11,360 bases of DNA from Candidatus Desantisiibacteriota bacterium (lineage in GTDB: Bacteria; JACRDZ01), in contig JACQWU010000218.1 of NCBI GenBank assembly GCA_016209155.1, positions 1-11,360 of the forward strand, written 5' to 3'. Position numbers and translations under genes: made by a program. Each line of letters begins with the position of its first letter. The first letter of the stretch is position 1. The notes below the pieces were generated by a model. It saw nothing but the letters and a program-made list of their open reading frames with translations. It ran no database searches and was not told where the DNA came from. This document shows, in pieces, positions 5,338 through 8,081 of the stretch.

Positions 5338-6006
5338 TTATCTCGTACCGGGAAGTTTTATAAGAAATGTACTTCCCCCATTTGGTTTACTTTTTACTTT
5401 TATTTCCCCTTTAAAATCTTTGATAATTTCTGAAGTTATAAATAAGCCTAATCCATTTCCTTCAGTTGACAGTTTGCGGGTAAAAAACGGTGTGAATATT
5501 AGAGGTAAATCTTTTTTTGTTATCCCGCATCCGTTATCTTTTATTTTTATTTGTATTTTTTTTTTTATAATCGCAGTTGAGATTGCAATTTTTCCTTTAT
5601 CTTTATAGGCACAGGCAGATATAGCATTTTTTAATAAATTTACAATAACCTGTTTTAATTTATATTCATCTCCCCAAAAAAATATTTTTGATTCGCATAA
5701 TTGTTTATTTAAAAAAATCATATTTTCTATGAGCTGGGGTTTAAATATATATATAATTCCATCAATAACCTTATTAACATTTATATATTTATTCCGGGCG
5801 GATGTATTAGAATAATTCATCACAAGGTTCTTAATCCTGAGAGCCTCATTTTCAATTGCTTTTATCCTTTTTAAATCTTTATATTTTAAGTGATTTTCAA
5901 GTATTATATATTGAATGTTAGATATGATAGTTGTCAGCGGATTTTTAATTTCATGCAATGTCATATTTATTTTATCAATCTTAATAGCCGGTTCAGTAAT
6001 TAACAT
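5338..6006 (-). CDS. Sensor-less soluble histidine kinase
   Basis: 222 residues from the ATG at 6006. A GTG two codons upstream is less likely because GGAG (6017-6014) stands 7 nt from the ATG but only 1 nt from the GTG. The HisKA domain begins almost at once with 'LHEIKNP' (phospho-acceptor H18). The ATPase domain is complete: N box 'NLLKNA' (N127), G1 'DNGCG' (157-161), F box 'FTPFFT' (171-176) and G2 'GNGLGL' (183-188). There is no membrane segment, PAS or other input domain, so the signal must come from a partner, plausibly the receiver protein encoded upstream. The gene follows a 176-bp fold-back insertion and is followed after 20 nt by the epimerase gene. Kinase function is secure; partner is inferred. 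Confidence 0.9.
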   Translation of the reverse strand: MLITEPAIKIDKINMTLHEIKNPLTTIISNIQYIILENHLKYKDLKRIKAIENEALRIKNLVMNYSNTSARNKYINVNKVIDGIIYIFKPQLIENMIFLNKQLCESKIFFWGDEYKLKQVIVNLLKNAISACAYKDKGKIAISTAIIKKKIQIKIKDNGCGITKKDLPLIFTPFFTRKLSTEGNGLGLFITSEIIKDFKGEIKVKSKPNGGSTFLIKLPGTR

Positions 6007-6024
6007 TTTCACACTCCATATTCT

Positions 6025-6029
6025 TCATA
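6025..6029. repeat. Left copy of 5-bp target-site duplication (TCATA)
   Basis: TCATA directly abuts the left end of the inverted-repeat element and is repeated at 6206-6210 at its right end, as expected from a staggered-cut insertion. Five bases alone could match by chance; the exact abutment to both inverted-repeat ends raises confidence. Confidence 0.6.
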
Positions 6030-6030
6030 C

Positions 6031-6055
6031 CTGAATCTTGCATAGCAAGATTCAG
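6031..6055. repeat. Terminal hairpin, third copy of the element's end repeat
   Basis: CTGAATCTTGC (6031-6041) is followed, after a 3-nt loop ATA, by its exact complement (6045-6055). The left end of the element therefore carries its own perfect 11-bp hairpin besides pairing with the right end. At the right end only an imperfect version exists (CTGAATTTG at 6181-6189 against 6195-6204). Confidence 0.75.
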
Positions 6056-6106
6056 AAATCGCCAATACATCCCGAAATCCTGCGTCTTCGGCGATTTTGC
6101 TCCTCA

Positions 6107-6125
6107 CCGTACTGGTTAAGTACGG
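6107..6125. repeat. Apical hairpin of the fold-back element
   Basis: CCGTACT (6107-6113), loop GGTTA, AGTACGG (6119-6125): a perfect 7-bp stem located at the centre of symmetry of the 176-bp element. Confidence 0.7.
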
Positions 6126-6205
6126 CTGCGTCGTAAAATCACCTGCCAGACTTGTCTTTCGGGCGCCTGGGCGATTTTACCTGAATTTGAAGTGCAAGAT
6201 TCAGG

Positions 6206-6210
6206 TCATA
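6206..6210. repeat. Right copy of 5-bp target-site duplication (TCATA)
   Basis: Matches 6025-6029 exactly and abuts the right inverted repeat; it lies 1 nt beyond the stop codon of the receiver gene, so the insertion just spared that gene. Confidence 0.6.
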
Positions 6211-6211
6211 A

Positions 6212-6598
6212 TCAATTGAGCAGTAATTTTTTCTCCATCCGGAAATATTTATCTTCAACTTTATTTATTACATATTTTAATTCTTCTATCCCAAATGGTT
6301 TATGCAGGAAGGCAAAGGGTGATATCCCTTTAAAGGATATTTCATTACTGCCTGATCCTGACATTATAATTACAGGTTTATTTAAATGAATATTTTTTAA
6401 ATAATTTTTAGATTCCTTTGCATTGCCGCCCTGTAGAAAGAGGTCAAGTAATACAAAGTGAAAATCAGATTTTTTTATTTTTTTTATAGCTTCAGATTTA
6501 CTGGTAGCTGTTGAAACCTTAAAACCAAGATGATGTAAAATATCTTTTAATATATTTATCAAGTATTTTTCATCTTCAATGACAAGAACTTTTAGCAT
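6212..6598 (-). CDS. Single-domain response regulator (CheY-like receiver)
   Basis: 128 residues, the length of one receiver domain with no output domain. The acidic pocket is 'IEDE' (E8, D9), the phospho-acceptor is D52 in 'VLLDLF', the switch serine is S80 in 'IIMSGSG', and the conserved lysine is K100 in 'HKPF'. The ATG at 6598 has AAGGA (6612-6608) 9 nt upstream. It is the first gene after the sigma-54 promoter at 6646-6663 and precedes the sensor-less kinase, from which it is separated by the fold-back insertion. It may pass phosphate or bind a partner instead of DNA; its cognate kinase is probably the downstream one (inference). Confidence 0.9.
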   Translation of the reverse strand: MLKVLVIEDEKYLINILKDILHHLGFKVSTATSKSEAIKKIKKSDFHFVLLDLFLQGGNAKESKNYLKNIHLNKPVIIMSGSGSNEISFKGISPFAFLHKPFGIEELKYVINKVEDKYFRMEKKLLLN

Positions 6599-6751: not shown

Positions 6752-7624
6752 CTATTCAATATGATATCTTTTAATTTTATTGAATAATGTCTTGTAGTCA
6801 ACATTCAGCATCGTAGCGGTTTTGCGTTTATTCCAATGTGTTTCATTTAACTTTGCGAGGATCAAATTTTTTTCAATAGCTTCAGTATGTGCACGTGAGA
6901 TTTCTTTTAACGAAGACGGTTTTTGCTGGAGTTTAGGGATCTTATGGCTCTGTGAAACAATTTCTATAGGAATGTGTCTTATATCTATTGATTCTTCTGC
7001 AAGAAGAACAGCTCTTTTTATTACATTTTTTAATTCCCGGACATTCCCATACCATGAATAATTCAAGAAAATTTCATGCGCTTTAGGAGTAAAATCTTTT
7101 ATTTCTTTATGGAATTCAAGATTAAATTCATCTAAAAAATGTTTCATTAAAAGAGGAATATCTTCTTTCCTTTCCCGTAAAGGAGGGATATGCAGGGAAA
7201 ATTCGTTAAGTCTGAAAAATAAATCCTCTCTGAATTTTCCTTCAGCGATGCTTTTTTTTAAATCAACATTTGTTGCTGTAATGAACCTGGCATCGATTTT
7301 TATACGTTTTCTTCCACCTATACGCTCTATTTCTCTTTCCTGGAGCAATCTTAAAAGTTTAATTTGGATATTATGAGACAAATTCCCAATTTCATCCAGA
7401 AAAATTGTTCCTCCCTGAGCTAATTCTATTTTCCCGATGTTGAGTTTATCCGCACCGGTAAAAGAACCTTTCTCAAAACCAAAAATTTCACTTTCTACAA
7501 GTGTTTCCGGCAGTGTAGAACAATCGATCGGTACATAAGAACGTGTGGAACGGTTACTTTCAAAATGAATAACCCTTGCTACCAGTTCTTTACCTGTACC
7601 GCTTTCACCTGTAATTAATATTTG
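6752..7624 (-). pseudogene. NtrC-family sigma-54 activator: AAA+ and Fis-type HTH portion, out of frame with its receiver
   Basis: The frame is open from 7624 to the stop at 6752 (290 codons). From its start it shows Walker A 'GESGTGKE' (residues 6-13), 'GSFTGA' at 53-58 (a variant of the sigma-54 contact loop GAFTGA), Walker B 'TIFLDE' (73-78), the 'FREDLFFRL' arginine-finger region, 'NVRELKN' and a C-terminal Fis-type helix-turn-helix ('TATMLNVDYKTLFNKIKRYHIE', about the last 22 residues). Three stop codons in a row precede the first codon and no ATG, GTG or TTG precedes Walker A; the first usable start (TTG at 7381) would yield a protein without Walker A. The normal AAA+ N-terminal helices and linker are missing. 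It is therefore the 3' part of a broken gene, unless the sequence is misassembled. Confidence 0.8.
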
Positions 7625-7881
7625 TCATTATCAAGCAATAAAAAAATAACAGTATAAGGGTTTATTATTTTAATTTTATTTATTGTTTCCTGAAAGTTTT
7701 TTGCAGGAAGTCCCAGGTCTAAAAAAATTAAATCAGGGTTCAGCCCGGGGATCTTTTCTATACCGTCTTCGATGCATGTGGCAGTTTCAATTGTTGAAAT
7801 ATAATCTTTCATGGTTTTATTTAAAAAATTTTCTGTTTCCAGGTTTTTGTCAATCACAAGAATTCTAAGACATTCTTTCAT
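7615..7881 (-). pseudogene. NtrC-family sigma-54 activator: truncated receiver portion
   Basis: 88 residues from the ATG at 7881, which has AAGGA (7892-7888) 6 nt upstream; a TTG at 7899 is a weaker option. It covers strands 1-4 of a receiver domain: D11 in 'LVIDKN', phospho-acceptor D55 in 'PDLIFLDLGLP', and 'NPYTVIFLLLDND' at about 74-86. It then stops at 7615, losing the switch residue, conserved lysine, helix 5 and the linker. The AAA+ part resumes within 10 nt in another frame. The visible lesion implies loss of roughly 80-90 codons. A functional full-length regulator cannot be made from this sequence. No slippery heptamer is present to suggest programmed frameshifting. Confidence 0.78.
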
Positions 7882-8081
7882 AATATTTCCTTTTCCCAAT
7901 GCCTGTCTCGGGGGTATTTCATTGAAAATATTTAAAGATTACCTGATTTTAATGAATTAAATAAATAAAAGTTCAAATATTTAATCATCACTTAAATAAA
8001 CCGTTAAAAAAAAGAACAACTCCCTCTTATTGTATTGCCACAAAATATCTTTTGTCTCTTAAAAAATATTGAATTATAAAA

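Follow-up and report, generated by a model that had tools for sequence, protein, structure and literature searches.

A fold-back MITE family in a Candidatus Desantisiibacteriota genome and the probable deletion products of its insertions

The 176-bp element described here is one of many dispersed copies in its genome, and the family is best explained as a non-autonomous fold-back MITE whose insertions have mostly collapsed in place by hairpin-stimulated slippage, a reading to which a probability of roughly 0.65 may be attached. The window, which is the whole stretch of 11,360 nucleotides that was analysed, is contig C143 of an assembly of 3.08 Mb in 352 contigs that is 79% complete. A direct reading of the sequence places the element at 6030-6205 of the window with its two target duplications outside of these boundaries. 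The features of the locus are as follows.

5338-6012, minus strand: host gene, HisKA/HATPase_c histidine kinase (PF02518, 3e-27)
6025-6029, no strand: left target-site duplication TCATA, from sequence reading; 5-bp duplications recur at other copies
6028-6038, plus strand: direct repeat 1, left copy TACCTGAATCT, identified from the consensus; right copy starts at 6178
6030-6056, plus strand: L unit, left terminal palindrome CCTGAATCTTGC-ATA-GCAAGATTCAGA, 27 nt, of which the outer 12 nt are the terminal inverted repeat (TIR)
6045-6055, plus strand: direct repeat 2, left copy GCAAGATTCAG; right copy at 6194-6204
6057-6179, plus strand: internal fold-back region with arms ATCGCC.. / ..GGCGATTTTA that pair across the element, from folding
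6090-6098, plus strand: direct repeat 3, left copy GGCGATTTT; right copy at 6170-6178
6107-6125, plus strand: central hairpin CCGTACT-GGTTA-AGTACGG, from folding
6180-6205, plus strand: R unit, right terminal palindrome CCTGAATTTGAAGTGCAAGATTCAGG, 26 nt, of which the outer 12 nt are the TIR
6206-6210, no strand: right target-site duplication TCATA, from sequence reading
6212-6598, minus strand: host gene, Response_reg receiver-domain protein (PF00072, 1.7e-14)

The original prediction had described perfect 12-bp TIRs, abutting TCATA duplications, a G+C content above that of the surroundings, a fold-back structure and a position between a receiver gene and a kinase gene, and all of these descriptions hold. 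The TIRs are CCTGAATCTTGC at 6030-6041 and its inverted copy GCAAGATTCAGG at 6194-6205; with the flanking A/T included, the arms extend to 14 nt and are still perfect. The 176 bp between the duplications contain no listed ORF. Their G+C content is 48.9%, whereas the 200-bp flanks have 26.5% and the window as a whole has 31.9%. Both host genes are on the minus strand, and the TGA stop codon of the receiver gene lies 1 nt from the target duplication, as had been claimed. The nested fold-back is strong both as DNA (-44.3 kcal/mol, z = -7.9) and as RNA of either strand (-79 to -86, z = -8.3 to -8.8), with none of 200 shuffled sequences folding equally well. What is new in this analysis is that the ends are full palindromes and that solo copies of them are dispersed in the genome. 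Two other genes in the window are irregular. Downstream of a TldD/PmbA-family gene on the plus strand, a gene at 1703-2859 is split over two frames near 2560-2640, an apparent frameshift, which could stem from a mistake in sequencing or mark a gene that is broken. On the minus strand, the gene at 6752-7899 looks internally deleted: the stretch that would join its receiver domain (7615-7899) to the sigma-54 activator domain downstream, which begins in another frame at LITGESGTGKE, is missing.

A search of the element's own genome, which the original prediction had proposed as a check on a mobile, non-coding, MITE-like reading, identified nine near-full-length copies on nine contigs with 85-96% identity (C143, C320, C316, C317, C321, C163, C120, C112 and C233; BLAST). 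Truncated copies were identified by BLAST on C47, C149 and C66, and the copies on C218 and C277 are shortened in their interior. The element is thus not single-copy, and the mobile reading is supported by dispersed copies that have the same ends and, in many cases, 5-bp duplications of their own. Nor did the converse pattern appear, in which copies at orthologous positions in distant relatives would point to a structured RNA: no copy of the element was found when 59 other genomes were searched, including three from the same phylum, which were the closest relatives covered, and the palindrome was likewise not found in those three. Plasmid and phage records also held no copy of the element. A 20-base palindrome pattern matched 13 stretches in GTDB genomes and two in IMG/VR. 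The 13 GTDB matches proved on inspection to be scattered single sites plus an unrelated repeated-element hairpin in Bacteroidales MAGs. This hairpin, AGGACTGAATCTTGCAAGTCAGATTCAGTCCT, is repeated near ends GTGTCCGATAAAA in Paludibacteraceae and Bacteroidales MAGs (L047-L058). It has 20 bases in common with the R palindrome and seems to be part of some other, unrelated mobile element. The idea of an uptake sequence was also dropped, since nearly all CTGAATCTTGC 11-mers sit within palindromes.

The family consensus ends are CCTGAATCTTGC-ATA-GCAAGATTCAG(A/G) on the left (L) and CCTGAATCTGAAGTGCAAGATTCAGG on the right (R), each of them palindromic. Solo palindromes consisting of one end type occur at 33 further sites, 22 of which are R-type (26 bp) and 11 L-type (27 bp), and a few diverged examples exist beyond these. 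The consensus contains exactly three direct repeats of at least 7 bp, namely TTACCTGAATCT (12 bp), GCAAGATTCAG (11 bp) and GGCGATTTT (9 bp), while a shuffled consensus contains 0.05 direct repeats of at least 9 bp. Deletion between the copies of each repeat is predicted to leave cores of 26, 27 and 96 bp, and the short forms in the genome match these lengths: the 26-bp form is present 22 times, the 27-bp form 11 times and the 96-bp form once or twice. The 96-bp form is that of C218; C277 has the same interior deletion, and its junction GCGTCTTGGCGATTTTACC is consistent with slippage inside a longer imperfect repeat, GCGTCTT(C)GGCGATTTT. The order of abundance of the short forms is also the order of direct-repeat length. 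In the window element itself, the right copy of direct repeat 1 carries one substitution (GAATTT). Subfamily variants GAAGAGC and ATGG are present in full and solo forms alike. In single copies, both arms of a palindrome have changed together (C120 2776-2802, L007; C297 1599, L089; C112 177-204, L008), with CTGAATC/GATTCAG becoming CTTAATC/GATTAAG and ATCT/AGAT becoming ATCC/GGAT, and the left end of the C112 copy bears right-end sequence. These observations hint at arm-to-arm copying within the hairpin.

Target duplications accompany full and solo forms alike. When the 5 nt on each side were compared at 43 sites, perfect duplications were found at 21 (22 with the register of the C321 copy corrected), compared to a mean of 5.9 and a maximum of 14 when the right flanks were dealt randomly in 20,000 trials. 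By class, perfect duplications flank 4/10 full copies, 12/22 R-type solos and 5/11 L-type solos, all with the common consensus TAWTA. Weighing against the insertion reading, roughly half of the sites have an imperfect duplication, and the DNA around them is rich in A and T. At C155, AAATA stands on both sides, which suggests that the outer base is part of the duplication and that its length is 5 bp rather than 3. Solos on C70 and C256 share a neighbouring repeat; their origin by joint duplication was rejected because the offsets differ and C70 has its own perfect duplication. A further dispersed repeat, of about 130 bp and with hairpins (ATGAAGAACCCTGCGG...GGAATTCTTTATTATTTATTTT...CCCTGCCTT...AATGGCAC), is present at C70 10080-10222 (L094), C256 16886-17024 (L029), C120 2198-2323 (L007), C155 1133-1217 and C40 13256-13320. 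It had no Rfam match where searched, and by its looks it is either a structured RNA or a small mobile element of another family.

Copies of the family are mostly intergenic, with 8 of 43 sites inside called ORFs. By crude gene calls, 10 of the 35 non-ORF copies touch or nearly touch a stop codon; for TAWTA sites elsewhere outside ORFs, the figure is 7 of 221 (p = 6e-6). Because TAA is contained in TAATA, insertions at stop codons leave the stop intact; selection against gene damage may be an added cause of the excess.

From these data, a model of insertion followed by collapse may be proposed. A putative transposase, probably a DDE enzyme, would insert the element with a 5-bp stagger at TAWTA, often directly after a stop codon. 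Once inserted, the long hairpin would be unstable, and replication slippage between the short direct repeats, which sit at the bases of nested hairpins, would remove the interior. Such settings are known to promote deletion between short direct repeats, as in the nearly precise excision of Tn10. Slippage between the copies of TACCTGAATCT would yield the 26-bp R-type palindrome, between those of GCAAGATTCAG the 27-bp L-type palindrome and between those of GGCGATTTT the 96-bp form, and the original 5-bp duplication would stay in place after each collapse.

The data show directly that the copies are dispersed, that they have duplications and that the short forms match the direct repeats; the slippage step and the passage from full to solo forms are what we infer from the copies as they stand. 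In a rival reading, the bare 26/27-bp palindrome might itself be what moves, producing a 5-bp duplication on insertion, and the 176-bp element would be a composite that travels as an inverted pair. Solos outnumber full copies by about 3 to 1 and their duplications are at least as good, and very small repeats thought to be mobile, the SDRs, have been reported in cyanobacteria (Elhai 2008, cited in PMC3116915). Sequence decay gives no clear direction because the trends for the two ends are opposite: R-type solos are 94.5% alike compared to 96.9% for the R units of full copies, and L-type solos 93.5% compared to 90.5% for L units. The 26- and 27-bp solos equally fit independently moving end palindromes, and it takes the rare 96-bp form to tell the two readings apart. 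Against a mobile palindrome, deletion between the element's direct repeats accounts for the same end sequences, and it alone accounts for the 96-bp form. A 26-bp unit would presumably also have to bind transposase at both of its abutting 12-bp ends. Overall, a mobile palindrome is considered rather unlikely; if true, the palindrome would rank with the smallest DNA units that transpose with target duplication.

Two further readings are much less probable. The architecture resembles that of REPINs and REP singlets, with a short-palindrome pair inverted around a spacer, a hairpin fold and solos elsewhere (PMC3116915), such that a Y1 (RAYT) transposase could have moved the full copies as REPINs, with the solos as REP singlets that are now defunct. 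The genome does have several Y1_Tnp genes; however, no palindrome pair was present at the ten Y1 loci examined, no neighbouring RAYT gene was found for the family, and its ends are without the GTAG tag typical of REPs. The family has 5-bp target duplications, and neither REPINs nor IS200/IS605-type movement are known to generate these. The duplications and the unlinked Y1 genes argue against membership, which is therefore regarded as improbable. A conserved structured RNA or terminator family that is not mobile would account for the strong fold on both strands and for the excess at stop codons. Against it, target duplications are present, there was no Rfam match for the element, a terminator scan of it returned nothing, and it was not found in the three same-phylum genomes. 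Covariation in the fold is also scarce, with a two-sided change in 1/46 pairs. This is the least probable of the readings considered.

As a further check, the original prediction had proposed a search for a transposase gene bounded by the element's ends, CCTGAATCTTGC. None was found among the DDE_Tnp_1, Tn3, Y1 and IS1380-type genes searched in this 79%-complete assembly. Four DDE_Tnp_1 genes were above the cut-off, and CCTGAATC ends are lacking in all of them: one has the TIRs AGGAGGCTGTCC, another has CAGCAATTCCG, and the four in general have other ends or none that were recognised. Neither Tn3 nor IS1380-type transposases had a match in the 352 contigs. These searches do not establish that a partner is absent, as they covered four transposase families in an assembly that lacks one fifth of the genome. 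Ends that match an autonomous transposon are usual for MITEs and not required. Tn3-derived MITEs (TIMEs) and IS1380-type elements such as ISEcp1 have duplications of about 5 bp that are AT-rich, as does the family, and ISEcp1 ends, like those of the family, begin with CCT; TIMEs, however, have 38-bp ends that begin with GGGG rather than CCTGAATCTTGC. A second family of repeats, GGGGCTGTCCAAAAAGGTGC ... CACCTTTTTGGACAGCCCC, which encloses a ATTCCCGCGAAGGCGGGAAT hairpin, was observed at L014 (C277), L002/L099 (C320, about 15003-15133), L023 (C27), C256 (about 16726-16880) and C66 (about 2678-2816). At C277 and C27 it adjoins copies of the fold-back element that are truncated. A transposase gene on C59 (L108) has ends, AGGAGGCTGTCC, that resemble this second family.

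The family has four features by which MITEs are recognised: it is short and non-coding, and it has perfect TIRs of 12-14 nt, target duplication and multiple dispersed copies. Bacterial MITEs such as ERIC, NEMIS/Correia, RUP, Chunjie and QMITE are likewise multicopy, intergenic fold-back sequences, and size variants are common among them (PMC10969869; PMC2229807). In contrast, each end of the present element is a palindrome over its full length, and three direct repeats determine the classes of short forms, which keep their duplications. Markedly truncated copies of QMITE2 are described as losing both DRs and TIRs, unlike the short forms here, and several of those families usually have TA-dinucleotide ends rather than a 5-bp TAWTA duplication. 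The nearest parallel to the proposed collapse is the nearly precise excision of Tn10 (discussed in PMC12524634), in which inverted repeats also stimulate deletion between short direct repeats and the ends are left in place; for Tn10 this was seen experimentally in a large transposon, whereas here it is proposed from natural MITE copies.

The family is a new one of an ordinary MITE kind, from a phylum that has been poorly sampled, and its probable deletion products form a series that can be read unusually well. Under the collapse model, if correct, a single genome would preserve a natural record of hairpin deletion, with intact, half-collapsed and fully collapsed insertions, in which the product classes are set by direct-repeat length. 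This suggests that some short palindromic repeats of bacteria may have no function as sites and instead be the scars that larger mobile elements left behind. A simple test for such scars would be target duplications that flank solo palindromes, together with lengths that match the direct repeats of a parent element.
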